The notes under the pieces: generated by a model
The model's input: the letters and a program-made list of their open reading frames with translations, nothing else
What the model was told of the DNA's origin: nothing
The model's database searches: none
Program-made: the position numbers and the translations under genes
Shown: one piece after another, positions 5,109 to 23,586 of the stretch
Position numbering within the stretch: the first letter of the stretch is position 1
Layout: every line of letters starts with the position of its first letter
Origin: a virus
DNA length: 32,279 nt
Direction: 5' to 3' (one strand)
Virus record (IMG/VR): IMGVR_UViG_3300049003_000120
Coordinates: 1-32,279 of that record

Positions 5109-6119
5109 TTATGTGAGTGGTATCCCGACCTTTAGTTTTGCGTAGTCGAGGTACATCAGGTAGGCGCCGTTTCGGTGAGCAATCCAGTCGTCGGCTCTGC
5201 CGGCCTTAAAAGCGCGGGCCATGACGCGCACGCACTTCTCAGGGTTAGAGAGCGCTTCGTCTGGGGTTTTAACGTCTTTGTTTGGACCGATGTACCAGCG
5301 TGAGTTCAGCTGGCAGAGGCCGTAGTCGGTCGAGACGATGACGTTGTGCTCGTCGCGGTTGTTGTTGATGGCTCTCGGGTTGAACTGCGATTCGCCGGAG
5401 ATCGTCGCGAACAGTTCCGCCGTGGCGGTGGCAGAGAGTTTCTCCTCCCGGCAGACGCGAAGAACCATGTCAGCAAGCGATTCGCGCTTCGTGAGGGCCG
5501 CGTAGAGTTGCCTAGCAAGGCTCAACGCTTGTCGGAGTAACGAAGGTACGTCAGGGCTCGTTGCGACGCGACGATCAGAAGCGTAGGCGTCGGTCAGGTA
5601 CGGAGCGAAATCGAAAGAGTCATTTGCATCATTCACGTCTGTCCATTCGAGGTGAACGTGTCGGCCGGACACTACGTAGGCGCCGTTTGGATCTTCCACG
5701 AGACGGCAGCGCCGGGCCTGAATGTGGGTATGCGATCCGGTGGAGAACCCGGTGTTGTCGGCGACGGCGAGCGCCGTACCTTCGGAAACGTGGGCGAAAG
5801 TAGAAAGGAGAAGGTGATCGCAGTGAAGAAAGTCGAGCGTGACGTATGCGGTGTTGCCGTCGTCGAAGAGGTACTTGTCGTCAGAAAGAAGCGAGACGAA
5901 GACGCCGCCTCCTTGCGGTTGCCACTGGCCGTTCTCCTTCGTGGCTGAGCGAATGACGGTTCCTGCGAACGGAGCGTAGATGGTCGCGTCGGCGCCGAGA
6001 GCGACGTCGATGCCGTTGTGGCGGTCAAATCCGAATTGGCGATAGACGGGAGGGTTGTAGACGCCCCAAGGTTGGTTAACGACCCACGGCTTGATTGCGC
6101 GCGAAAGAGCAAATCGCAT
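5109..6119 (-). CDS. Endolysin with M23 peptidase and lytic transglycosylase domains
   Basis: 336 residues, cutting both peptide and glycan parts of peptidoglycan. The N-terminal M23/LytM domain has HNGID (zinc ligands H34, D38), the APFAGTVI strand (49-56) and SHTH (H130, H132). The C-terminal lysozyme-like domain has the catalytic Glu in ISGESQFNP (E243) and DYGLCQLNSRWY downstream. ATG 6119 was chosen because it shares a base with the preceding stop (TGATG); the longer reading runs into the upstream gene. No signal peptide is visible, so export would need the holin partner. Both domains in one phage lysin is uncommon but the motifs are clear. Confidence 0.88.
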   Translation of the reverse strand: MRFALSRAIKPWVVNQPWGVYNPPVYRQFGFDRHNGIDVALGADATIYAPFAGTVIRSATKENGQWQPQGGGVFVSLLSDDKYLFDDGNTAYVTLDFLHCDHLLLSTFAHVSEGTALAVADNTGFSTGSHTHIQARRCRLVEDPNGAYVVSGRHVHLEWTDVNDANDSFDFAPYLTDAYASDRRVATSPDVPSLLRQALSLARQLYAALTKRESLADMVLRVCREEKLSATATAELFATISGESQFNPRAINNNRDEHNVIVSTDYGLCQLNSRWYIGPNKDVKTPDEALSNPEKCVRVMARAFKAGRADDWIAHRNGAYLMYLDYAKLKVGIPLT

Positions 6120-6415
6120 CAGTGCGGAATGAAGCGGCTCACCCATTCGACGATGAGTGCGATGGCGCTCGCGATCGCGTAAATCTTCCACCGGTCAGAT
6201 TCGATGATGCGAAGCCGCGTCTCGTGGTCAGCCTGCTTGCCGGTTGCTTCGATTAACTCCGTTCGATCAGCTTTCATGTTTTCTAGGTAGGCGATTTTTC
6301 CGGAGTTGGTTTCGATATAGCGGCGCATCTCTTCTGTGAAGGATCTGAACTCGGTTCGGAGTTCAGTGAACGCCACGATCAGGTCTACGTTGGGGTCTTT
6401 GCGCCTCTGGGCCAT
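6119..6415 (-). CDS. Coiled-coil protein with C-terminal membrane anchor (XhlA/holin-like)
   Basis: 98 residues. Residues about 8-70 form a charged heptad-rich helix, followed by one transmembrane segment near the C-terminus (WKIYAIASAIALIVEWVSRF). This coiled coil plus tail-anchor layout matches haemolysin XhlA-type lysis accessories. It sits directly upstream of the endolysin with a TGATG junction. It may be part of the holin machinery or a spanin-like helper; no specific family motif is seen. Confidence 0.6.
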   Translation of the reverse strand: MAQRRKDPNVDLIVAFTELRTEFRSFTEEMRRYIETNSGKIAYLENMKADRTELIEATGKQADHETRLRIIESDRWKIYAIASAIALIVEWVSRFIPH

Positions 6416-6418
6416 GCG

Positions 6419-7165
6419 TTACTGCCCATTCGGTAGCTTGCGTCGAGGACGCGCGCCGAATTGGAGCGATTCCGGGGCTTCGACGTAGCCGGATGGGGTG
6501 GAGCGGCCGGGAGCGGACGCCAACGCTCGGAGAAGCGCTTCTTGGGGAACTGCTGCGCCGAAGCTGGACGACGAAGGAAGCGAAGACGGACCAGGCGCTG
6601 AGAGTGAAGCGGGAGAGACGGCTGTTCCTGTTCCCGACATGGGAGGCTGGGGCATGACAGTTCCCGGCATCGCAGGTTGAGGCATCGCGGTAGCGGGTTG
6701 CGCTGCGGCGGTGGCAGGCGATGTTGCCATCGGCGCGGAGTTCTGGAGAGGTGACGTTGGAACGAACGCGTTGCCGGTTCTAGCGTTTGAAGGGCTCGCT
6801 CCGCTCATCGGGTTCGTGAGGACACTCGCCGGAACCGTCGTCGAAGAAGACGAGGGTTGCGCTGACGGCGTGTGCGCAATCTGCATTGTCGGTTGGAGAT
6901 GATCAGCGTAGGCGGTCGGGATAGCTCCGGATGGAGCGGAAATCATCGATTGAGTAACGTTGGACTGGTTCGGGAGGAGACCAGTGGCACGTCCGAGACC
7001 TACAGTGGCATTGCCGTTCCATCCCGACTTGCCGGTTAACGCCGAATACGCACCTCCGAGGGTGCGTTCAGCGGTGTTCGCCGCGTGTAGCGCGGATGAA
7101 GCGACGGTCTTGCCGAAGCTCTTGAGCCCACCTACAACGTTTGAGGCGATACCTGATGCATTCAC
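6419..7165 (-). CDS. Ser/Pro/Ala-rich low-complexity protein
   Basis: 248 residues, GTG start overlapping the stop of the previous small membrane gene by 4 bp (GTGA, 7162-7165). A helical N-terminus (VVGGLKSFGKTVASSALHAA) is followed by a long disordered stretch rich in S, P, A, T and M with PQPAMPGTV / PQPPMSGTG repeats, and a basic C-terminus (RPRRKLPNGQ). Context between the ejection-type proteins and lysis genes suggests a minor virion component. No known family is recognised. Confidence 0.6.
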   Translation of the reverse strand: MNASGIASNVVGGLKSFGKTVASSALHAANTAERTLGGAYSALTGKSGWNGNATVGLGRATGLLPNQSNVTQSMISAPSGAIPTAYADHLQPTMQIAHTPSAQPSSSSTTVPASVLTNPMSGASPSNARTGNAFVPTSPLQNSAPMATSPATAAAQPATAMPQPAMPGTVMPQPPMSGTGTAVSPASLSAPGPSSLPSSSSFGAAVPQEALLRALASAPGRSTPSGYVEAPESLQFGARPRRKLPNGQ

Positions 7166-7317
7166 CAGCTATGGCCTTGCTTGGAAACCTGCTTTCCGCC
7201 TTGGACAATGACGAGAACGCTCGCAAGCCAGAGCAGCACGAAGGCTGCTGGCGGAATCGTCGCGGCGTATGCCGTAAGGATTGTGATGAGCGCTGCGCCA
7301 ATGAGAAGAAGTTTCAT
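7162..7317 (-). CDS. 51-residue membrane protein
   Basis: Short ORF with two hydrophobic segments, LLLIGAALITILTAYAATI (3-21) and AAFVLLWLASVLVIVQ (24-39), then a basic tail. It fills the space between the transglycosylase protein and the low-complexity protein and overlaps the latter by GTGA. It could be a holin or a small membrane accessory of DNA entry. No motif decides between these. Confidence 0.6.
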   Translation of the reverse strand: MKLLLIGAALITILTAYAATIPPAAFVLLWLASVLVIVQGGKQVSKQGHSW

Positions 7318-7363
7318 TGTGAGTGTGTGGTTGACGGCCTTTTCTTCATCGTAGCAACTGGGT

Positions 7364-9415
7364 TCATTTCTGCAAGCCAGCCGCCCTGTTGATTACTGTC
7401 TTCGCGGTGGTTCCGCGCGTTGGGAGAACGGCGTTGTAGATCGTATTCAGGTAGCGGTTGCCAGAGCCTGGTAGCGAAGGGCTGGGGAGTTCGCCCGACT
7501 TTGAGAAGTTCTGAAATTTCGACCCGACTGCGGAACGAGCTTTCGTGCCGAGGGTTGCTTTTGCAATCGGTTCGGCGCTCAGCATTCCAGCAATTTCGCC
7601 GGGAACTCCGAAGGTGCTTCCAAGGATGGTCCCGACGCCGCGAGCGGCGAGGCGGCCAAAGAGTCCGAGTTCCGGTCGGCCGGCAGCTTTCGCGAGCAGG
7701 TCCTGGTATTTCAGGGCGAGACCGTACTGCTTGTTGAAGTCGCCGACCTTCTGGCCTGCGACGGTGCCGCCTTCAGATTCAATCGCTTTTTCGACAGCGG
7801 ATTTGTAGATGTGTCCCGCATCTTTCGCAACGTCCCGCGTGGCGTTCGATTTCGTCATGTCGAATCGGGCGTCATGCCACGCGCCGCGCTTCAGATCGTT
7901 CACGGTCGAAACGGGGATGTCGTCGCCGTAGCCGAGCGCCGGGTCGCTGAGGTGAGCTTTGATCTGCTGGACCGCATGTTTCGCGGATTGGTAGTCCTGG
8001 GGACTCGACTTGTAAGCGTCGGGAATCTGATCGAGCTCGTTGAAGAGATCCGTCTTCTTGACGGTCGCTTGGGATTGCTTCAGCGCCTGCTGGAGCTGCG
8101 CTTCGTGGTTGTCGATGACAGTGGCAACTTGGTCGAGGCGTTCTTCGGGAGTACCGACGAGCTTCTGGTCTGCCGCGTAGCGAATGAGCGGGTTGTCGTT
8201 TACGGCGTGAGTGGGAGACTCCTGCACGAGCTTCGTTTTTTGCGTGGGAGTCAGCCGGAGATTCTGCTCCTCGAGACTGGCGGCGGCGTCTCCGGCTTTG
8301 CGTTGAGCGAATCCGCTTCGGAGCGGTGCTCGGAGCGTTTTCCCCGCAAGTGCCACGGGGTCGGTGTACTCGGCAACCTTGCCGGCACCTTCGGCAATCG
8401 TTCTCGCGGTTTGTCCGGCTTCGCCGAGCTTTGCAACATCGGCGACGGTGGCGCCTTCATTCGCAAGGTTTGCAGCGCGCGCCGTATTGAATGCATCCGT
8501 GGCAAGGGCGCCTGTTTTGAGGAGCGAAGAGGCACCTCCCGCGACGGTGGAAAGGTCAGCCAACGTTTCGATCGGATGCGAGTAGAGCGTGTCCTTGATG
8601 TTCTGCCAGCCGCCGTACCGCTCCTTGTAGTGCCGCCCAATTGCATCGGCGTACTTTTCCTGGCCCTGTTGTCCGGGGATGAGTTTTTCGGCAGCACCCA
8701 AGCCGATCTTTCCAAGGTTCGAGATGGTGTCAACGGGGTGAATGATCGTGTTGATGAGGCTATTGAAAAATCCGCCAGCATCGGAGGCAACGTTGTGACC
8801 GAATCCGGCGAGCGTCTTGCCCTCGGGCGCTGGGGCGGTCGGGGCGGTAGAAGACGCTGGAGTTGCGGCTAAGGCTTGGTCGAACGGTTCACCGTATTGA
8901 AAGTGCCGATACCAGGCGTAGCCAGTGCGCGCGTATTTTGGAGTGTCGTAGTTTGCTCCGCCCTTTGAAACGCCGGCATGGGCGCCATCGAAATGGTCGG
9001 GTGAGCCGCTGTTCCAAAGCGAGAGGATTTGGCCGACGTTGTAGCCTTGGTCCTTCCAAGCCTTGATTTGTTTGTAGGCAACCTGATTCTGATTCTCCGG
9101 CGTGGGCGCGGCATTCGGGTCGCCGAGGTGCCGTGCAGCCCATCCCTTCCACGTACTCGGCATGAACTGGTAAGCGCCGATCTCGCCGTCCTTTCCCTTC
9201 GCGTTGAAATTGCCTCCGCTTTCGTTTTGGCGGACGGCTTTGGCTAGGTTGACTACCTGCGGATCGAGACCGCCTCCAGGAGTGGATGCGTCAGGCGTAC
9301 TGGTTGGTGCGGTTGGAGCCGCGACGGGTACGGGAAGAGAGGGAGGAGGCGGCGCAAGACTGCCGAGAACCGGTTGAAGATTTCCGATGAGTGCGGAGCG
9401 ATCGATTTTGGGCAC
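7364..9415 (-). CDS. Virion-associated lytic transglycosylase / ejection-type protein
   Basis: 683 residues, GTG start. After a Pro-rich leader, residues about 50-165 form a lysozyme-like transglycosylase domain: catalytic Glu in RQNESGGNF (E65), GAYQFMPSTWKGWA (80-93) and ILSLWNSGSPDHF. The remainder is long, helical and Gly/Ala-rich with no recognised domain, ending in a hydrophobic Gly-rich region and a basic tail. The layout recalls internal virion proteins such as T7 gp16, where a transglycosylase module precedes a long helical body that opens the envelope during DNA entry. The start region nearly duplicates that of the major capsid gene (both begin GTGCCCAAAATC). Confidence 0.75.
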   Translation of the reverse strand: MPKIDRSALIGNLQPVLGSLAPPPPSLPVPVAAPTAPTSTPDASTPGGGLDPQVVNLAKAVRQNESGGNFNAKGKDGEIGAYQFMPSTWKGWAARHLGDPNAAPTPENQNQVAYKQIKAWKDQGYNVGQILSLWNSGSPDHFDGAHAGVSKGGANYDTPKYARTGYAWYRHFQYGEPFDQALAATPASSTAPTAPAPEGKTLAGFGHNVASDAGGFFNSLINTIIHPVDTISNLGKIGLGAAEKLIPGQQGQEKYADAIGRHYKERYGGWQNIKDTLYSHPIETLADLSTVAGGASSLLKTGALATDAFNTARAANLANEGATVADVAKLGEAGQTARTIAEGAGKVAEYTDPVALAGKTLRAPLRSGFAQRKAGDAAASLEEQNLRLTPTQKTKLVQESPTHAVNDNPLIRYAADQKLVGTPEERLDQVATVIDNHEAQLQQALKQSQATVKKTDLFNELDQIPDAYKSSPQDYQSAKHAVQQIKAHLSDPALGYGDDIPVSTVNDLKRGAWHDARFDMTKSNATRDVAKDAGHIYKSAVEKAIESEGGTVAGQKVGDFNKQYGLALKYQDLLAKAAGRPELGLFGRLAARGVGTILGSTFGVPGEIAGMLSAEPIAKATLGTKARSAVGSKFQNFSKSGELPSPSLPGSGNRYLNTIYNAVLPTRGTTAKTVINRAAGLQK

Positions 9416-11451: not shown

Positions 11452-12813
11452 CTAGATGCTCACAGGAACGGCAACGAGCGCCGTGCCGAGCTTGTAGACG
11501 AAGTAGATGTAGTTGTTGAAGGCGAGCTGGCCGACGAGATCCTCTTCGATGTTCTGCGTACTCGCCTCAGCAAGAGAACCGTTGGCGATACCAAACTTCA
11601 CGATCTGCTTCGCCGCGGAGTTGAAGCCGAGGTAGAACTTCGCATCGAATGCCATCAGCTCGTCTGGCGTTGTAGCGGGATACGCGAACGTATCGACTAC
11701 CGAGTAATCGGACGTTTGAAAGCGAACGACTTTGTCCTTCCACGCGGCGCGCACTTCCTGGTAGACGACGAACTTCGCATCTGTCCCTGTCGCGGTGTCG
11801 CCGCCGGGCAGTCCGAATTTGTTGGCAACGAAGAACCCGCCCGAGTAAACGTTCGAGTTCTGGTAGCCCCAGTCGGGAGTGAAAAAGCCGGAGCCGCTCG
11901 CTGCGCCGCGAACCGAAAGCGCGTACTGCCCCGCAACGTTCACGGCGACGTTCGTATCGAAGTAGATCCACCCCTCGAAGCCCGCAGCCATGGACATTTC
12001 GGAGCTGGTATCGATAGCGACGTTGTCGCGGAACACGCGAAAGGTGATTTTTGCGATGCCGCTGTTGGGGTTCTTGATGTAGACGCCGACTCTCCGGATT
12101 GGACCGGCGGTAGCGTCGGGTGTGAAGACTTGAAAGGTGTAGTTGGGCGTCCCTTCTGAGGCCATCGTCTGCCACGAATCGCGAGAAAGCTGCCGGGTGC
12201 GGATGCGCGTGGTTCCGGGGAGTGAATGGACGAAGTACTGGCCGTCGAAGGTGAGGTTTCGCTGGAACGCCGCAGAGTCGAACGCGAAGTTCGGCGCGGC
12301 GATCTGCGAGAGGTAATTCAGGTCGAAGTCGTAGAACAGAGCGATTGCGGTGTTCGCATCAACGAGGACCATGACCTTGTCGGTGAGGACCGTAATCGAG
12401 AGGACGTTGTCCATCTGAGCCACGCTCGGAAGATTGACTGAAAAGGCGTCCTGATACGGCGAGAGAAGGTTCAGAGTATTGAAACGGCGGAGGGAGTAGT
12501 TTGCGCCATCCCAGGTGACCGCGAAGATGTAGTAGTTCAGAGCCTTGTCGTAGCCGGTGGCGACCTGCACCACCTGCGTGTTGTCGAGGTTGATGTTCAT
12601 CGCCTGAAGGAGCGCATCGTCCCCGAGCTTGTCGCGCGTGATTGCACGCGGCATGACGTTGCCGGACTGCGAGACGACTTCCATGCCGCCGCGAAGGTCA
12701 CGCTCCATGATCGGGCCGTCGGCGAGAAGCGGCGCGTCTTTGTTGCGGAGGAATCGGTCGCTGTTCGTGACCTCCTCCCAGTTCACCTCTTGGTTGTCGC
12801 GGATGAGAGCCAT
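11452..12813 (-). CDS. Virion protein of unknown function, probable tail tip or receptor-binding component
   Basis: 453 residues, beta-rich (repeated patterns such as QVVQVATGYDKALNYYIFAV). It has a likely jelly-roll-like middle segment between about 215 and 310 (VFTPDATAGPIRRVGVYIKN to FFTPDWGYQNSN). It overlaps the upstream tail-hub gene by one base (TGATG at 12811-12815), so both are made together. Position right after the hub gene suits an adsorption or tail accessory protein. No catalytic motif is seen. Confidence 0.6.
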   Translation of the reverse strand: MALIRDNQEVNWEEVTNSDRFLRNKDAPLLADGPIMERDLRGGMEVVSQSGNVMPRAITRDKLGDDALLQAMNINLDNTQVVQVATGYDKALNYYIFAVTWDGANYSLRRFNTLNLLSPYQDAFSVNLPSVAQMDNVLSITVLTDKVMVLVDANTAIALFYDFDLNYLSQIAAPNFAFDSAAFQRNLTFDGQYFVHSLPGTTRIRTRQLSRDSWQTMASEGTPNYTFQVFTPDATAGPIRRVGVYIKNPNSGIAKITFRVFRDNVAIDTSSEMSMAAGFEGWIYFDTNVAVNVAGQYALSVRGAASGSGFFTPDWGYQNSNVYSGGFFVANKFGLPGGDTATGTDAKFVVYQEVRAAWKDKVVRFQTSDYSVVDTFAYPATTPDELMAFDAKFYLGFNSAAKQIVKFGIANGSLAEASTQNIEEDLVGQLAFNNYIYFVYKLGTALVAVPVSI

Positions 12814-14195
12814 CAGACGCCGTTGGTGCGTTTGTCGTGCTCGCCGCCCTTCGAGGGGTCAACGTAGAAAGAAAGCTTTTGAATCGTGCGCATCTCCTTG
12901 TCGGAGACTTCGTGGAAGCGGAACCGGACGTCGCGGCCGAGCTTCCGGTCGGTGAATTGCGTGATCGCTCGCTTCGCCTTGCCTAGCTCCTTGAAGCCTT
13001 GGCCGTCGATTGAATAGTGGACGGTCGGAGGAGATTTCGGCTCGTTCGACATTCTGAGAATCGCCTGCTGAAACTCCGCCTCCTTGATGGGGTCTCCGAA
13101 CTCGATGATGCCGGTCTCGTACTCCATCTCGATGGGCGTTCCGGCGTACGAGTAGCCGCGCGCCCAGGTGTAGGTTTTCCCGGCAGAGGAACCGAGGTAG
13201 ATGTTCTGCAGTTTGTCGGTGCCGATGAAGTCCGACGCGCAAGTAATGGCATGGGCAAGCGTCCGAATCTTCCAGGTATCCTGCAGCGTGTCGTAGACGA
13301 GAACGCAGTTCGTGTAGGTCCGGCCTTCGACGGTGACGTTGCCAATCCAGAGGCAATACTTGTTGCCGTCCTTGAACGCGAAGACTGCGTACGGGTCGGT
13401 CACGGCATCGATGAAATCCTGAACCTTGAGCGAAATGAGTTCGGGGTAGCGAGAAGCGAGCTGGTAGATGCCCTTCCGGCTGAAGAAGTAGACGATGCCG
13501 CCGATGTTCACGATGGAACGGCGGGAGGTGGTGCCGACGTCGAGCGTGACGTAGCGGAGAACGGAAGGGTTGTTCTTCGAGTCCACCTGAAACTCCCAGA
13601 TGGAAAACTCCTTGAAGATCATGAGGGAGTCGAAGACCGGAACCAGAGCCATGTTGCGGTCGCCGTCGTTGTTGTTCACGTCGAAATTGTTGAAGACCGG
13701 CCAGTTCTCCGGGTTGCCCGTCGATGAGTAGTAGACGGTCGAGTAGTTGGGATCCACTCCGGTAACGTAAACGCGGTCCTTGAAGACCGCTGGAATTGAT
13801 CCGTTCGGGGGTGTGCCGCCGAGGTTCGAGAAAGTCGTGCCGTCGAACTTCTTTGGCGGGTCCACGGCGTTGAAACGCATGCCGAGGTTTTTGTACGTGA
13901 CCCAGGACGGAATCACGGTCGTGCTGAGGCCCGTCGCACCGCTGAGGGCTGACCACGCAGTTGTTCCGTTCCACTTGTAGACGATGCCGCCGCTGTCGCG
14001 AAGGAAGTAGCGCGTCGTTGTAGCGGCGATGTTGTAGTACGGGTAAAGCGCCAGGACCGCGTCTGTGGTGGGCGTATCGGCGAAGACTGAATAGCCTTTG
14101 TCTTTCTGAATGGAGCCGATTTGGTCGAGGTTTACGTTTTTCGCGATGCGCGCCTCGGCCATTTTGTTCAGGACCGGAGAAACACGGCGATTCAT
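12813..14195 (-). CDS. Tail hub / stabilisation-type protein (P22 gp10 or T7 gp12 analogue)
   Basis: 460 residues. The start (AEARIAKNVNLDQIGSIQKD, about 13-32) is the kind of N-terminus seen in short-tailed phage hub proteins, which often read 'NVxLxxxGSLxKRxG'. It is followed by beta-propeller-like repeats with paired aromatics (VYVTGVDPNYSTVYYS, IWEFQVDSKNNPSVLRY, GIVYFFSRKGIYQLA). A role as head-tail hub or tail tube in a podovirus-like virion is inferred from this and from the adaptor gene upstream. The assignment is by resemblance, without a decisive motif. Confidence 0.6.
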   Translation of the reverse strand: MNRRVSPVLNKMAEARIAKNVNLDQIGSIQKDKGYSVFADTPTTDAVLALYPYYNIAATTTRYFLRDSGGIVYKWNGTTAWSALSGATGLSTTVIPSWVTYKNLGMRFNAVDPPKKFDGTTFSNLGGTPPNGSIPAVFKDRVYVTGVDPNYSTVYYSSTGNPENWPVFNNFDVNNNDGDRNMALVPVFDSLMIFKEFSIWEFQVDSKNNPSVLRYVTLDVGTTSRRSIVNIGGIVYFFSRKGIYQLASRYPELISLKVQDFIDAVTDPYAVFAFKDGNKYCLWIGNVTVEGRTYTNCVLVYDTLQDTWKIRTLAHAITCASDFIGTDKLQNIYLGSSAGKTYTWARGYSYAGTPIEMEYETGIIEFGDPIKEAEFQQAILRMSNEPKSPPTVHYSIDGQGFKELGKAKRAITQFTDRKLGRDVRFRFHEVSDKEMRTIQKLSFYVDPSKGGEHDKRTNGV

Positions 14196-14255: not shown

Positions 14256-15437
14256 CTAGCTGGGGAGCGTGAAACCATCCGCAAAATCGGTTTCGAGGCT
14301 GTCTCCGTATTGCGGAATCGTGTCGGGAGTTTCCGGGTAGCGGTTCTTGATGACCGAAAGCATCGTTTTGACCTCGTCCACCCAGAGGTCGCCGTAGTAC
14401 TTCGCCATGTCCATTTGGTGGTCGAACTGGAAGGCTTTCTGAAGCGCGAAATTGACCGGCGTCGTCTCGTAGCCGGTCGGCAGGTCCGGAACATCGTCGT
14501 CATTCGCGAGCTTCGCCGGCATGTACACGTACCTCGGAAGGATTCCGCCGGTTGAAGCGGTCGGCGTCGGCTTCGGGATGAGGTTTGAGCCTTCGAAGTA
14601 GTAGTTCGGGTTCGAGCGCGAGTAGATGGTGTTTGGGAAATCGTAGCTGCCGTCGATCGCGGAAGCGGGAACGTACCGGACACCATCGAACGTGAAGAAG
14701 AGCCGCTTGGCGCGAACGTAGTCGGGCAGGAGCGTCTTCAGGTTGTAGCTCCGCTGGTTGGCGACGAATGAAATGATGCCGCCGTTGCCATCGGTGCCGT
14801 ACTTGACGTACCAATCGATGCCGAGGTCGAGAATCTGTCCCGCTTCCTTCTGGTATCCCTCGTTTAGCCAGCGTGCAACATCGTCGCGGTCGAGGATGCG
14901 GTCAGACTGCTTGCTGAATTCCGTGAAGACGGCAGAGATCATGCCGGCGAGCGTTGCGGCATCGAAGCCCGTCGCGGGAATCTCCGCCGAGTAGCCTGAG
15001 AGACCGCCCGAGATTGAGTTCTTGTAGCGGATTTTGTAGTAATCCGTAGTGGCTCCGGCAGCGTCTTTGTACGTCGTTCCGGCCTGGTCCACGGTCATAT
15101 CGACGGTCGCGAGAATTGAGTAGCTGCCGCCCTTCGCTGTGGCGTGAGAGATCTCAATCTGGTCGAAATCTAGCGCGGTAATCGGAGTGTCGGTGGAGTG
15201 GCTGTACTTCAGCGCTGCCGCAAGAGTGATGACGGTATCGGTCGGTGCCGTGGAAGCGTGAGTCTTGACGATTTCGGCATCCTCCGCGCCGAGTGAGCCG
15301 ACGAGTACGAGCTGATTGACGGTGAAACCCTTCGTGTTGATGACGGAGAGCGTAGTTTCGGCGGCGTTCGCCTGCTGCGCGAGCGAAGTCGCTTCATTCT
15401 GGCTGATGTTTGGATGATTCCAGGAGAGGGAGTTCAT
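14256..15437 (-). CDS. Adaptor-like head-tail connector protein with N-terminal beta domain
   Basis: 393 residues. Residues 1 to about 165 look like two small beta domains (SVINTKGFTVNQLVLVGSLG and a fibronectin/Ig-like YYKIRYKNSISGGLSGYSAE). The C-terminal part starts with a helical connector-type segment (FTEFSKQSDRILDRDDVARW) and continues with SYNLKTLLPDYVRAKRLFF and FALQKAFQFDHQMDMAKYYG, resembling phage adaptor proteins placed under the portal (P22 gp4, T7 gp11 class). Its ATG overlaps the upstream stop (ATGA, 15434-15437). The extra N-terminal domain is unusual for adaptors. Confidence 0.6.
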   Translation of the reverse strand: MNSLSWNHPNISQNEATSLAQQANAAETTLSVINTKGFTVNQLVLVGSLGAEDAEIVKTHASTAPTDTVITLAAALKYSHSTDTPITALDFDQIEISHATAKGGSYSILATVDMTVDQAGTTYKDAAGATTDYYKIRYKNSISGGLSGYSAEIPATGFDAATLAGMISAVFTEFSKQSDRILDRDDVARWLNEGYQKEAGQILDLGIDWYVKYGTDGNGGIISFVANQRSYNLKTLLPDYVRAKRLFFTFDGVRYVPASAIDGSYDFPNTIYSRSNPNYYFEGSNLIPKPTPTASTGGILPRYVYMPAKLANDDDVPDLPTGYETTPVNFALQKAFQFDHQMDMAKYYGDLWVDEVKTMLSVIKNRYPETPDTIPQYGDSLETDFADGFTLPS

Positions 15438-17548
15438 TGGCGTAGCGTTGGACGGTCGTTCTTAGGCGCGCCGTGCGGTGTCGTGGCCTTCGACGAGCCG
15501 TGCAGGTCGGTCGTGGCGCTGGCTCGGAACGCGCTTCGGGGCGAAATGCGATCGATGAGCTTCAGGATGTAGGACAGGCCGGGAATGGCCGTCGCGATGA
15601 TGCTAAGGGTCCTGAAGTAGGTGACTGTTTTAACCATACTACGGACAGCGTAGGCCGTCACTGTGAGTATCTTCTGGATGGTCTTCTGAATGGCGATGGT
15701 CGCGGTTGCCGTGACCGAAAGGGTACGGACGTAGATCGCCACTCGTGAAAGGGTCGCTGACGCGCTACTGGTTACGGACAGGGTGCGGAAGTACGAGGCG
15801 ATGCGGGAGAGAGAGACAGTACCGGTCGCCGTGACGGTGAGGCTTCTGAGCGCGGTCATCACTTTCGAAAGCGTGACTGCCGCCGAGGCAATTACTGCCA
15901 AGGTCTTCACGACAATTCGCACCTTCGCGAGAGAGACGGCAGCTGTCGCTGTGACGGTGAGGGACCTGAGCGCCGTTTTGATCTTGGTGAGCGATGGAAC
16001 GGCGGTCGCAGTCACGGAGAGCGATCTGATTGCTGTCGTGATTTTACTAAGAGTGACTACGGCGGTCGTCGTGACCGTGAGGCTTCTTAAAGCCGTCATG
16101 ACCTTTGACAGAGAGAGGACTGCAGCCGCGGTCACTGAGAGGGTTTTGACGCGAACGAGGTTCTTTAGCAACGACGGAACTGAGGTGGCGGTGACGGCGA
16201 GAGATTTGACGCGAATGAGCGCCTTTACGAGCGACGGCACGGATGTGGCGGTAACGACGAGCGACTTTACGCGGATGAGAACCTTCACGACAGACGGAAC
16301 CGCCGTAGCTGTAACCGACAGACTTCGGAGTGCGGTCATGATCTTCGTGAGGCTGATAACCGAGGTCGCCGTTACGGTTAGAGAGCGGACTGCGGTCTTG
16401 ATGCGGGATAACGAGAGCACGGCCGTCGCGGTGACCGCGAGGCTTTTCACACGGATGAGTGCTTTTGTGAGAGAGACGACGGCAGTCGCGGTCACCGACA
16501 GACTCTGATTGAACGTGGTGCCTACGGGTGCGAGCGCAAAGGCGATGACAACCCATTTCCAGTTCGCACCCGATTCGCTGAAGTTCAGCGTGTAGGTCGA
16601 AGCTCCCATGGCGGCGTTTGAGTCGAAGAAGCCGCCGTTCATGGTGGCATTGCTGGTTGGTACTGTTGTTGTTATTCGCGCTGTTGTTCCAGACCCTGCG
16701 AGAGGGAGGCCGGTGTTGCCGTTTTCGTTCGTGAACGCGAGCGCCCAGGAGTTAGTGTTCGACGCGCTGACCACGACCGATTCCGTAGTGGCAGTGCCGG
16801 TGTTTTGTTTTACGACCGTGCCAATGGGCGAGGTTTGAGCGACGCCGCTGTAGGAAACGCCGTAATGGCCGTTGAAGCCGGCGCTCGATTGCGTGATGGA
16901 GACGACGGCGCTTGAGGTGGTGTTCTGTCCGATGATGTGCATGACATCCGAGTAGCCGCCCGCGCCGGTGAAATTCGAATTTCCTATCGTCTGATTCATC
17001 GCCACGCTGTCGTAGGTCGGCGAGCTGAAGGTGCGCCCGGCATTCAAAGAGTTGTTCCATGCACCGTTGAAGAAAATGCGGTTGGTGCCGGTCGAAGTGA
17101 AGGTGTAGGTCAGCGAGGCGTTCGTGTTATGGGAGCCGTCGGCCGTAGTGCCGACCGCAATGGCCCCTATTCCTGCGAAAATGACCCTGTGCGAGGGTTC
17201 GTAGTTGAAAATAAGGCAGAGGGCGAGTGCGACCGCCGCGAACGTCTGGAGGGCGTAAACGCGCGTGGCGCGGGTTCGAGTTCTCCAGAGGTAAGCGGGA
17301 ACTCCGAGGTAGTGCCGCGCGAAAGCTCGGAAGGTGTAGAAGTGGCGCTGCCGATTGCTTTCGGAATCAATGTAAATCGCCGCTTCGCAGCGAATGCGAT
17401 CCGGCCAAAGCCTTCGACAGATGCGCTGAAAGGTGCCGGCGTTTCTCGGCTCGATGATGAAGAAGTCAAACCACGCCTTCCAATCCCATATGGTGTAGTC
17501 ATCGCACCATCCGTATGCGCTGCCGTTGGATGAGAAGTGAAGTTTCAT
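15434..17548 (-). CDS. 704-residue protein with beta-sandwich domain and sixteen 20-residue repeats
   Basis: Four regions. Residues 1 to about 95 are Trp/Arg-rich and unlike a virion protein, followed by one hydrophobic segment (about 97-114, LQTFAAVALALCLIF). Residues about 125-345 form a beta-sandwich of a type common in environmental phage adhesins (VGTTADGSHNTNASLTYTFT, RIFFNGAW ... WKWVVIAFALAP). Residues 349-666 are 16 tandem units of 20 residues (units 14 and 15 have 19) with consensus [ST]Lx VTATAV xSLxK xxxxxR/K. A basic, Ser/Thr-rich tail of 38 residues ends the protein. The ATG at 17548 is used; TTG one codon earlier is also possible. Likely a fibre or membrane-active tail protein; the repeat function is unknown. 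The gene overlaps the adaptor start by ATGA. Confidence 0.75.
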   Translation of the reverse strand: MKLHFSSNGSAYGWCDDYTIWDWKAWFDFFIIEPRNAGTFQRICRRLWPDRIRCEAAIYIDSESNRQRHFYTFRAFARHYLGVPAYLWRTRTRATRVYALQTFAAVALALCLIFNYEPSHRVIFAGIGAIAVGTTADGSHNTNASLTYTFTSTGTNRIFFNGAWNNSLNAGRTFSSPTYDSVAMNQTIGNSNFTGAGGYSDVMHIIGQNTTSSAVVSITQSSAGFNGHYGVSYSGVAQTSPIGTVVKQNTGTATTESVVVSASNTNSWALAFTNENGNTGLPLAGSGTTARITTTVPTSNATMNGGFFDSNAAMGASTYTLNFSESGANWKWVVIAFALAPVGTTFNQSLSVTATAVVSLTKALIRVKSLAVTATAVLSLSRIKTAVRSLTVTATSVISLTKIMTALRSLSVTATAVPSVVKVLIRVKSLVVTATSVPSLVKALIRVKSLAVTATSVPSLLKNLVRVKTLSVTAAAVLSLSKVMTALRSLTVTTTAVVTLSKITTAIRSLSVTATAVPSLTKIKTALRSLTVTATAAVSLAKVRIVVKTLAVIASAAVTLSKVMTALRSLTVTATGTVSLSRIASYFRTLSVTSSASATLSRVAIYVRTLSVTATATIAIQKTIQKILTVTAYAVRSMVKTVTYFRTLSIIATAIPGLSYILKLIDRISPRSAFRASATTDLHGSSKATTPHGAPKNDRPTLRQ
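15551..16504 (-). repeat. Sixteen in-frame 60-nt tandem repeats
   Basis: 954 bp coding for 16 consecutive 20-residue units. Every unit has [ST]Lx(V/I)(T/I) near its start and usually a basic residue near position 14 and at its end (LTKALIRVK, LSKVMTALR, LVKALIRVK). DNA copies are clearly diverged, especially in the last four units, so the array is old rather than newly amplified and selection appears to act on the protein. Confidence 0.9.
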
Positions 17549-17554
17549 CAAGCT

Positions 17555-17595
17555 GGGAGCGGTCTCCCGCTCAGCCCTGCCCCTGAGGAGGGCAG
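17555..17595. repeat. Intergenic palindromes ahead of the repeat-protein gene
   Basis: Two hairpins in the 60-bp gap: GGGAG (17555-17559) / CTCCC (17564-17568), and CTGCCC (17577-17582) / GGGCAG (17590-17595). No T-run follows. Similar G/C-rich palindromes lie at 18546-18570 and 27215-27236, suggesting a small family of intergenic hairpins. Confidence 0.45.
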
Positions 17596-17608
17596 AGGGA
17601 GAGGGCGA

Positions 17609-17974
17609 TTAGGTCTGCTTGATGTCGATCGTGAACTGGATCTTGTCGCCTGCCGCGAGGACAACTCCGGTGAAGTCTCCCTTCACCCAAAGGTTGCCGG
17701 TCGAGGAAGCGTCGAAGAGCCCGGCGTTCGTGATCGTCGCGCCCGAGACTGAGGTGAGCGTCGCGATATTTCGAAGCGTGTCGTTCGTGACGGTCGTGGT
17801 CTGAACGGTCTGCGTGGAAGCTGCGCGCTCGGCGGCGACTTCTGTGAAGAGGGTCGTATCGGTCGCAGCGGCAGTGCCGGCAGCGGTTCCCCAGCCGATG
17901 TAAGGCGTGGTGAGACCGGTGTTGCACTTCGAGATCATCTGGGCTTTGCCCGTGTTTGTAAGAACTGTGGCCAT
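17609..17974 (-). CDS. Phage structural protein of a common uncharacterised type
   Basis: 121 residues, beta-rich: YIGWGTAAGTAAATDTTLF, then TITNAGLFDASSTGNLWVKG and AAGDKIQFTI. This set of phrases is familiar to me from small proteins in many tailed phages annotated as tail fibre or head decoration proteins. I recall no experimental role. ATG follows the upstream TAA directly (TAAATG), so the genes are adjacent without overlap. CAAGGCTG stands upstream in place of a normal Shine-Dalgarno. Confidence 0.65.
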   Translation of the reverse strand: MATVLTNTGKAQMISKCNTGLTTPYIGWGTAAGTAAATDTTLFTEVAAERAASTQTVQTTTVTNDTLRNIATLTSVSGATITNAGLFDASSTGNLWVKGDFTGVVLAAGDKIQFTIDIKQT

Positions 17975-19120: not shown

Positions 19121-20326
19121 CTAGACGGTGAAGGTGCCGCCGGAAATCGTGAAGTTCCCGCGGGCTTTCCGCAAACCGAGGTTGATGTAGTGCTTCAGGA
19201 AGCCCTCCCAGGTCGCTTTACCCTGGAGCCGGAGGACGTTTCCGGAACCGTCGAGCTCAAGCCACTGCAACGGAGCGAGCTGTGCCTGCGTCATCGTGGA
19301 GAAGTCCACGCCGTAGATCACGCCGTCCGGTGCGTCGTAGTCGAGCACGCAAGCCACGTCGTACCCAGGGCCGTTGAATGCGAGCCCCTTGAAGCCTCCT
19401 TCGAGGTTCACGGAGTTCACAACGCGCTGGATGGACTGGAAGTCTGCAGCGAGCCGACGATACGCCGAGCGGTTCATGAACATGGCGTTCACTTTGCCGT
19501 ACTCGTTCGACTGAAGGATGAGGTCCTCCAGCTTGTATTCGAGCGCGCGTGCGGTCGAATACGTGGTCGGCGTCGAGAACACGGTCGGGACCCACCAAGG
19601 ATTCGTGGTGCGGTCGATCGTTTGGAACGTGTTCGTCGTGTTGCCGATGGCGTCTGCGAGACCGGTCGGTTCAACAGCGATGTCGCCGTCAGGACCGGTT
19701 ACGTAGACTTTGTTCGTGTTGCTCCACGAGCGCGCTGCGGAAAGCGTGAGCTGGGTTGCGCTATCGACACTCGCGATCTGAACCGGAGCGCCGGTGCCGA
19801 TCTTGATGTACTGCCCAGGGGCGAAGTACTTCGTTGCGGGGATGTCGCCGTTCGGTGATGAGGCCGAAAGGATGAGCGTTGTCGAGCTGACGCCTGCGCC
19901 GTTCGCAGTCGTGATTGCGCCGTCGCCGTTTTGCAGGAACATGCGGTTCATCTGCTTTGCGTGCGCGGAACGCATCTGCTCCTCGTTGATGGTCATGAGG
20001 TCGGCGAGAGATTTCGCGGACTCACGAGCCATTTCGAGGTCTTGGTCATCAACCGAGTAGCCGGTGAAGATGTACGTTGGTGCGATCTCCACGCGGGCAG
20101 TCGCGGCATAGCCGGTCGGAAGGGTTGCGCCCTTCGCGACGGCGGCGGTGCCGGAGTGCATCGACTTGATGACGGTGATGATGAACTTGTTGTTCACCTT
20201 CTCTACGCCGACGTTCTTTTTGACGGAGGAGAGAAACGCTGTTTCTTTTGCATACTGGTCCTCGATGTTCGGGGCCAGCATTTGTTTGAGGTAATTTTGT
20301 ACCTCGGTAAATGGGATTTTGGGCAC
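19121..20326 (-). CDS. Major capsid protein
   Basis: 401 residues, GTG start. Assigned from size, position right after the scaffold gene, and fold-like features of HK97/P22-type shells: N-terminal arm (FTEVQNYLKQMLAPNIEDQY), DLEMARESAKSLADLMTINE as the long helix region, an inserted beta domain (about 170-215), and LEYKLEDLILQSNEYGKVNA with YINLGLRKARGNFTISG near the end. Its start region closely matches that of the transglycosylase protein gene. A strong hairpin follows the stop. Confidence 0.82.
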   Translation of the reverse strand: MPKIPFTEVQNYLKQMLAPNIEDQYAKETAFLSSVKKNVGVEKVNNKFIITVIKSMHSGTAAVAKGATLPTGYAATARVEIAPTYIFTGYSVDDQDLEMARESAKSLADLMTINEEQMRSAHAKQMNRMFLQNGDGAITTANGAGVSSTTLILSASSPNGDIPATKYFAPGQYIKIGTGAPVQIASVDSATQLTLSAARSWSNTNKVYVTGPDGDIAVEPTGLADAIGNTTNTFQTIDRTTNPWWVPTVFSTPTTYSTARALEYKLEDLILQSNEYGKVNAMFMNRSAYRRLAADFQSIQRVVNSVNLEGGFKGLAFNGPGYDVACVLDYDAPDGVIYGVDFSTMTQAQLAPLQWLELDGSGNVLRLQGKATWEGFLKHYINLGLRKARGNFTISGGTFTV

Positions 20327-21475: not shown

Positions 21476-21736
21476 TTAATCGACGACACCGGTGACGTCG
21501 GTTTCATCGACGATGAGACACTTTTTTCCTTCGAGTTCAACTTCATCAGCTGCGTAGCGCTTGAATAAGACTTTGCTTCCGACCTTTAGCGATGCTTCGG
21601 GACCGGCGGCGAGAACGGTGCCCGTCTCTTGGTTGCGGCGGCCGTCCTGACGCGGCGTGAGGATGATGCCGCTTTGCGTCGTTGCCTCGGGCGAGGCGGC
21701 TTCGATGACGAGAAGTGTTCGGAGAGGGGTAATCAT
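21476..21736 (-). CDS. Phage-encoded co-chaperonin, GroES-like
   Basis: 86 residues with a Cpn10 fold signature: N-terminal strand TPLRTLLVIEAASP, mobile-loop tripeptide IIL (I24-I25-L26 in QSGIILTP) that contacts GroEL, then GTVLAAGPEASLKVGSKVLF and the closing KRYAADEVELEGKKCLIVDE with DVTGVV. It should cap host GroEL to fold capsid proteins, as T4 gp31 does. It is coupled to the portal gene (ATGA overlap, 21733-21736) and precedes scaffold and capsid, its likely client genes. Slightly shorter than bacterial GroES (about 95). Confidence 0.85.
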   Translation of the reverse strand: MITPLRTLLVIEAASPEATTQSGIILTPRQDGRRNQETGTVLAAGPEASLKVGSKVLFKRYAADEVELEGKKCLIVDETDVTGVVD

Positions 21737-23586
21737 GCGGTGGGTTGAGGAGCGGGCGGGGTTTGCGGACCGGGAGCGGGCGGCGTCTGGCCGTCTGTCG
21801 GGGCCGGGGTTTGACCGCCCTGTTGCTGAACGAACTGCATGATGATTCCTTGGAGCTGCGGCGGGAGCTGTTGGAACTCCGGCGTATCGGTGATGGACGT
21901 TTTCGCGTTCTGCATCTGGGCGAGGCGCGAAACGATTTCGTCGATGTTCGAGTACTTGTAAGCCTTCAGCACTTCCTCCGGCGGAAGGAGACCGACTTGG
22001 AAGAGCTCCATGGCCGTGTCGCGCTGGCCCTGTCCGGTGAACGCTGCGCCGCTTTCGATTTCAACCTTCACCATGTACTTCGAAGAGACCGGAATGGCCT
22101 GGCTGTCGGGGTTCTGAGCCGCGAGGCTGTTGCTCGCTGAGACGAGCTGGAAAAAGTCCGGCGAGCCGTCGGTCATGTGGTGAATCGTGACGGGATCGGT
22201 GAAGCAGCGGTCTGCCTGGTCGAGCACCTTCTCGGCAATCTCTTCGAGCGTCGAGCTGAGGAGGTCGATCGGCGTCTGGTTGTTCGCGTATTCGATGTTC
22301 TTCAGCATCTCAAGCGCATGCGCGGCTTTCACCCCCGCCGGCACTTTGCCGAACGAGACAACCGAAGTTCCGATCTCGTCCATGAGGTCCTTCAGGATGG
22401 TGAGGGTTTCAACCGACGACTGCGGCGATGCGCCCGGCTGGAGCCACTGCGGTGCGGTGGAACCTTCGTACTCGATGACTTCACCCTGGTCATTCAGGAC
22501 CCGGTTCATCTTGGTCATCTTCGGTTTCAAGAAGCGAGCGACGGCGGTGGTCCGCGCGTAGCCTTCGAGCATCGCGAGCTGAATGTCGATCGCTTGGTTT
22601 AGCGAGATGAGGTCGTAGTAGGGCGAGGACTTGTACAGCAGGCCGTCCAGAGGCTTGTAGGCGACGAACGGGTGCTCCGTCGATTCGGTGTGTTCTTCAC
22701 GAAGGACCTGGCCCTGCGACTCCGTAATGAGGTCCCAGTGGTCACCGTCCTTGATCCAGCACTCTTTGAGAAATGCTCGGGCGATTCGAGGATCTTGAAT
22801 TGCTTGCGCCGAACCTCCGCGTGACGCCTCCTTCAGTTTGATGTCCTTCCAGTCGGAGAGGGACATTTTTGTTTCGGGCTGGAGCTTTGCGGTCGCGGTA
22901 GGGTCGTAGAGGAGCTTTGCCCGCATCTTCGGCTGGCCGGTCTCGTCCATCACCGGCTCGCCGGTCTGAGGGTCGGTTTCCGGCTCCGTTTCGCCGCTCT
23001 CTGCGGTTCGGATGTACTCAAGCGTCCGCGACACCGTCTTGATGATGACGCTCGTTTCTTTGAGGCTCTTGATACCTGGCTCATGCCAAATGTCGTACGG
23101 CTCGTAGGTGTCGATGAAGATGTTGCCCTTCGAGTCCGCGCCGACCTCAGCGTAGCCGACGCCGTACTTGAAACCGTAGCTCACAAGCTCTCGGACGCGG
23201 TCCTTCATGTCCATGAAGTACCAGAGGTCCGAGAACCACTGACTCATCCTGCTCGCGGTGCGGTCGAAGAGCTGCTTTGCCTCCTCGCTCTGCATGTCGT
23301 CGCCCTCGGGCCGCGGGTAGATGTTCCAGCGCGGATCATTCGAGAGAACGATGTTGACGAGGCTCGATACCTGTTTCTTTGCACGAGGAATCGGGCGGAC
23401 TTTGATGCCCTCGAGCTGCCCGAGCTGGTTCATCTGCTTCACGAAGTGGTTGCCCTCGTCGAAGTTGTCGGCGAGATACCAGCGCAGCTCATGTTTTCGG
23501 CGGCTCGCGTTCAGAGACGTAAAAAGCTCCTGAATGAGGGTCGCGGTAGCTGCTGGCTTCGTGGTGTTTTGAGCGTCGGGTTCTAT
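21733..23586 (-). CDS. Portal protein with an apparent ATA start
   Basis: 617 residues if started at 23586. The dodecameric gateway for DNA packaging, identified by a portal-like N-terminus (SRRKHELRWYLADNFDEGNH, then QVSSLVNIVLSNDPRWNIYP), TYEPYDIWHEPG and a Gln/Pro-rich C-terminus. The first ATG/GTG/TTG in frame is GTG at 23442, but this lies inside the conserved N-terminal region. From the TAA at 23599-23601 to that GTG the frame is fully open and contains only rare starts: ATA (23586, with AGGG 7 nt upstream) and ATT. ATA at 23586 is proposed. The same TAA ends the preceding gene in the same frame, so readthrough or a base error are alternatives. Confidence 0.82.
   Translation of the reverse strand: MEPDAQNTTKPAATATLIQELFTSLNASRRKHELRWYLADNFDEGNHFVKQMNQLGQLEGIKVRPIPRAKKQVSSLVNIVLSNDPRWNIYPRPEGDDMQSEEAKQLFDRTASRMSQWFSDLWYFMDMKDRVRELVSYGFKYGVGYAEVGADSKGNIFIDTYEPYDIWHEPGIKSLKETSVIIKTVSRTLEYIRTAESGETEPETDPQTGEPVMDETGQPKMRAKLLYDPTATAKLQPETKMSLSDWKDIKLKEASRGGSAQAIQDPRIARAFLKECWIKDGDHWDLITESQGQVLREEHTESTEHPFVAYKPLDGLLYKSSPYYDLISLNQAIDIQLAMLEGYARTTAVARFLKPKMTKMNRVLNDQGEVIEYEGSTAPQWLQPGASPQSSVETLTILKDLMDEIGTSVVSFGKVPAGVKAAHALEMLKNIEYANNQTPIDLLSSTLEEIAEKVLDQADRCFTDPVTIHHMTDGSPDFFQLVSASNSLAAQNPDSQAIPVSSKYMVKVEIESGAAFTGQGQRDTAMELFQVGLLPPEEVLKAYKYSNIDEIVSRLAQMQNAKTSITDTPEFQQLPPQLQGIIMQFVQQQGGQTPAPTDGQTPPAPGPQTPPAPQPTA

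Follow-up and report, generated by a model that had tools for sequence, protein, structure and literature searches.

A 20-residue repeat array encoded beside a gp80-type bead gene: the probable rope of a beaded phage fibre

A viral DNA of 32,279 nucleotides (IMG/VR record IMGVR_UViG_3300049003_000120, the whole of which is hereafter called the window) encodes on its minus strand a protein of 704 residues (15434-17548) in which a unit of about 20 residues recurs sixteen times. What does such an array do in a virus? The minus strand of the window reads as the late region of a podovirus, with a P22-like portal (21733-23442), a major capsid protein (19121-20326), an SU10-type adaptor (14256-15437) and a stabilisation-type protein (12813-14195). 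A first-pass annotation, made from the sequence alone, held that the repeats would suit a beta-solenoid or a membrane-inserting stack and overlooked the neighbouring gene of the gp80 bead type, which is the key to their function. Proteins of this repeat type are here called ropes, and their small neighbours beads, after the role that we propose for them.

The array occupies residues 349-666 (15551-16504, minus strand), and its units follow the consensus S-L-[STA]-V-T-A-T-A-V-x-S-L-x-K-h-x-x-x-h-[RK]. Units 1-13 are 20 residues long each, unit 14 has 18 (609-626), and the last two again have 20 (627-646 and 647-666). In the N-terminal half of the unit, L at position 2, V or I at position 4 and T or I at position 5 are found in all sixteen copies, and A at position 6 in 14 of them; in the second half, position 12 is always L, V, I or M, and K or R stands at position 14 in 15/16 and at position 20 in 14/16. 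Mean pairwise identity among the sixteen is 46%, the self-similarity of the protein is maximal at a shift of exactly 20 residues (z 14.5 against shuffles), and the gene has a coding-like GC content by codon position. TRF detects the array in part only, at a 75-77% match. Across the 13 regular units, identity is 53% in nucleotides and 52% in amino acids, and differences at synonymous sites (0.71) are near saturation while those at nonsynonymous sites are about half that (0.37); selection has therefore kept the unit pattern. Thus the coordinates given in the first-pass annotation are exact and the array lies far beyond chance, and its further claims, that basic residues recur near unit positions 14 and 20 and that the DNA has diverged under selection on the pattern, are borne out. 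The open reading frame on the antisense strand at 15783-16508 merely shadows the array.

The gene next to the array shares family and fold with gp80 of the Ralstonia podophage GP4. It lies 60 nucleotides upstream on the same strand (17609-17974), and its 121-residue product matches PF23140, "Podophage GP4 fiber I protein gp80", with an E value of 1.9e-7 and 31.9 bits (curated cut-off 27). The AlphaFold2 model of this bead protein (pLDDT 87.6) matches 8jou_a with a Foldseek probability of 1.0 (E 2.8e-3) and a VIA Z of 7.8 (rmsd 3.3 A over 107 residues), a value under 8 that is moderate taken alone and that agrees with the Pfam sequence match. The entry 8jou, "Fiber I and fiber-tail-adaptor of phage GP4", holds ten gp80 chains. 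In the 60-nucleotide gap between the bead and rope genes (17549-17608, minus strand), two possible hairpins lie just ahead of the rope start (-28.6 kcal/mol), with a folding not stronger than that of shuffles (z -1.2, not significant). These hairpins are a possible means of making more bead than rope.

Neither phage records nor viral contigs gave a match to the repeat protein or its domains in direct searches, a failure probably due in part to the masking of low-complexity repeats by BLAST. The profile of phrog_2028, a family of unknown function, matches the repeat region (E 2.6e-7 to 1e-6) over part of its length, at profile positions 47-207 (161 of 453). Relatives were recovered instead with degenerate DNA patterns modelled on the unit, whose matches were then scored with a profile, and ropes of the same type were obtained in this way from phage contigs and from one bacterial MAG. 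Their pooled unit reads [ST]-L-x-[AV]-T-A-x-[GA]-x-[AVP]-x-L-x-[KRT], again with a period of 20, and comes after differing N-terminal domains, which by eye are beta-rich sandwich-like, LamG-like or DUF2341-like. Several of these ropes end in a basic tail, others in short KYP repeats. A second short repeat is seen at the end of the ropes of L065, L096 and L158 (type KYPENEATYEDKYPE) and of L013 (type KYPSKPGSYTEKYPS).

Although these patterns were built on the repeat only, they led back to the bead. Eleven further distinct contigs carried this type of rope together with enough upstream sequence, and a clear bead homologue was present upstream on the same strand in ten of them (L011, L065, L067, L086, L087, L125, L126, L133, L134 and L144); the eleventh, L081, has a 148-residue upstream protein with a weak match to the bead profile (E 0.14). 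Ten bead proteins were scanned; each matches PF23140 with an E value no higher than 0.005, and five exceed the family cut-off. When the 22 window proteins were compared by phmmer with the open reading frames of the relatives, the small upstream bead gene was the only one in common besides the repeat gene; capsid, portal and adaptor are not common to the relatives that carry the pair. With the capsid protein as query, no viral contig was matched, only distant Microbacterium and Arthrobacter phages, in whose annotated gene order the bead-rope pair is not found and in which the bead profile has no match. In L133 the interval between bead and rope (1354-1840) holds a gene whose glycine/aspartate repeats look RTX-like by eye and which may be another fibre part.

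A looser repeat pattern fetched 120 loci, some of them near-duplicates, so that the nominal p-value was given no weight. A bead gene was found in 38 of the 120. The repeat was on the same strand as the bead gene in 35 of these 38 loci and downstream of it in 29, but the same-strand count is weak by itself because the late genes of a phage are usually co-directional. Loci with and without a bead gene were not told apart when the fetched set was divided by periodicity (30/91 versus 8/29, Fisher p 0.65). Each group is a mixture of genuine ropes, shadows on the antisense strand and repeats that are unrelated, so the division is uninformative; in its place, use was made of where the repeat lies with respect to the bead gene and of the next-gene test described below. 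Bead type and the composition type of the rope are weakly correlated (Mantel r 0.12, p 0.007).

The converse sample consisted of cultured or complete phages picked by bead similarity alone, in which the next annotated gene was inspected. A period of 18-22 at z>=2.9 was found in the gene after the bead in 10 of 19 phages, compared with 2 of the 69 upstream control genes taken from these phages (Fisher p 1e-6). The z cut-off in this test was chosen after the data had been seen and several of the phages are related, and the association is strong but not final. In MW202615 and MW202496 the rope lies slightly further downstream of the bead; in the former (L163), the public record places at 5774-7585 an antisense open reading frame, and what it covers on the opposite strand is very probably a rope gene of about 1000 residues. 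Psychrobacillus phage PVJ1 and Sporosarcina phage Lietuvens have, after the bead, a baseplate protein that opens with about five rope-like units (by eye; L173 5402-6427 and L175 5403-6326, located after baseplate J). It is annotated as DUF2313 in Lietuvens and as portal in PVJ1. In mycobacteriophage CELFI, where the putative pair is gp22/gp23, the annotation reads only "minor tail protein". No rope was visible near the bead in five sampled phages, ctXG6705, ACP17, Moby, Octadecabacter DB2 and Mvi-JY20. Octadecabacter Antarctic DB virus 2 has two consecutive bead-like genes (L178, 4852-5635; the second by eye), with no visible rope.

These relatives also bear on the remainder of the window protein. 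Ahead of the repeats lies a beta-rich domain (residues ~124-345, 16514-17179, minus strand), in which strands are modelled by AlphaFold2 at a pLDDT of ~30; it is analogous to the N-terminal domains of other ropes, and its sequence has no match among the fetched loci. The first-pass annotation considered such a combination odd for a virion protein. It is not, because a sandwich or lectin-like domain joined to similar repeats recurs in many phages. Other ropes begin directly at their N-terminal domain, unlike the window protein with its apparent additional residues 1-123 (17180-17548, minus strand; pLDDT ~30), for which no relative was present in any fetched locus. The membrane segment once placed here corresponds to a hydrophobic stretch at ~98-115 that is short and has no counterpart in relatives, which makes it a weak candidate. 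At its other end the protein has a basic tail (residues 667-704, 15437-15550, minus strand), as other ropes do.

Each GP4 fiber I, in the account of Zheng et al. (2023), reportedly consists of five gp80 dimers joined by an elongated rope protein. Since the gene adjoining the array encodes a relative of gp80, and since this pair of genes is met again in many phages that are otherwise unrelated, we consider that the sixteen repeats are probably the bead-binding rope of a GP4-like, beads-on-a-string fibre, to which we give a probability of roughly two in three. Under this rope reading, each unit of about 20 residues would be extended and strand-forming and would dock one bead subunit, possibly through a strand added to the bead sheet. 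The string of units would thread the beads into a chain on the virion, with fibre length set by the number of units. The unit counts of GP4 relatives come close to the ten gp80 chains in 8jou, which suggests one unit per bead subunit; with one-to-one binding, the sixteen units of the window could take as many as 16 bead subunits (8 dimers). The N-terminal domain may anchor or cap the fibre, or may bind the host.

Alternatively, the repeats might fold by themselves into a shaft resembling a beta-solenoid, which would hold the N-terminal domain away from the virion, and the bead would be a separate part of the tail or fibre. Repetitive beta shafts are common in phage fibres, and the AlphaFold2 monomer model of the repeat protein is regular, with two short beta strands in each unit and a pLDDT of ~50-85 in the repeats (~30 elsewhere). 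The strand-like first half of the unit, as read in the first pass, is upheld. On a self-standing solenoid the model speaks neither for nor against, as it is weak overall (pLDDT 46.8, pTM 0.43) and has no match in the PDB at E<0.001; a search of BFVD gave nothing conclusive. A chain folding upon a partner and a solenoid predicted with little confidence would fit the model equally well, and it is evidence for neither. Moreover, the sandwich precedes the repeats, so that the repeats would trail behind it, and a shaft of this kind leaves the joint travel of bead and repeat genes in unrelated phages unexplained. We therefore regard the solenoid as unlikely.

It is also conceivable that the two genes are merely inherited side by side in a recombination-prone late-gene neighbourhood, their products never touching. 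Fibre genes do cluster and move as cassettes, and some bead homologues are without ropes. Yet the bead-rope association appears in both search directions, and the spacing of the repeat holds at 18-20 despite widely varying types of rope sequence, which renders mere neighbourhood improbable. Still less probable is insertion into, or perforation of, a membrane by the stacked repeats during infection. The units of the window are indeed hydrophobic, basic and free of acidic residues (K+R 0.14, D+E 0), but ropes that accompany the other bead subtype are rich in Gly, Ser, Ala and Thr, are often acidic and keep the identical 20-residue spacing; what is conserved is therefore not the hydrophobic character. 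Searches of Pfam, PHROGs and NCBIfam found no related family with membrane activity, and the membrane-inserting stack of the first reading found no support. Last and least credible is a leucine-rich-repeat protein of the bacterial SspH/IpaH kind, built of 20-residue units: the weak SspH2 matches (E ~0.001), which together with the spacing speak for it, arise from evenly spaced Leu in a biased sequence, the units have no LxxLxLxxN signature and a conserved Asn at no position, and the model predicts two strands per unit, not one.

The rope reading proposes a function for phage repeat proteins of a type that is common yet has no name, together with a rule for finding their partner, namely a gp80-type bead gene just upstream. 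If it is true, the number of repeats encodes the length of the fibre. The phages concerned suggest that GP4-style fibres are spread among podoviruses, siphoviruses and myoviruses with many different hosts, mycobacteriophages such as CELFI among them. A broader proposition, which we hold with about as much doubt as confidence, is that bead-on-rope fibres form a widespread class, in which ropes of many unrelated sequence types have in common a docking unit at intervals of 18-20 residues and all thread beads of a single gp80-fold family, unit count acts as a ruler of fibre length freely tuned by gain and loss of repeats, and terminal domains are interchangeable.

To our knowledge, only one structure of a GP4-style fibre exists to date. 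The likeness of the window to that structure (fiber I of GP4, 8jou; Zheng et al. 2023, J Mol Biol 435:168258) lies in its bead, which belongs to the gp80 family by Pfam and by fold. In the GP4 relatives BcepMigl, JC1, Itty13 and POI1126, a gene with repeats of ~20 residues follows directly downstream of the bead gene, in the same order as in the window, and this next gene scores z 2.9-6.7 at a period of 20-22. Counted by eye, there are 10-11 units in JC1_54, Itty13 and POI1126_16 and ~7 in BcepMigl gp57, compared with 16 in the window. The window rope differs further in its hydrophobic, basic unit LxVTATAVxSLxK and in its large N-terminal extension and beta-rich domain. That the rope of GP4 itself has units of ~20 residues is assumed from its relatives, and the relatives of this putative rope match no PDB chain sequence. 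In JC1, the bead gp53 is present in purified virions by mass spectrometry (PMC9144972), and the putative rope gp54 is absent from the mass-spectrometry list of virion proteins (PMC9144972).

Other known systems are more remote. The fold of the bead is shared by baseplate arm proteins, namely the arm segment of phi812 (9fko), A511 gp105 (6hhk) and T4 gp8 (1n7z), at Z 6.5-9.9, but these differ from it in sequence (9-14% identity) and in location in the virion. The Anabaena myophage A-1(L) has a bead-chain neck fibre, gp80-gp81-gp82, modelled as head-to-tail self-assembled trimers of gp81 (PMC10966104). It resembles the fibre proposed here in being beaded, with beads made from a small protein of the same operon, and differs from it in that no rope is described and that its "gp80" is the terminal module, a coincidence of numbering (PMC10966104). 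We infer that the window repeat protein works like a rope of the GP4 type, a claim of function and not of homology to the GP4 rope sequence.
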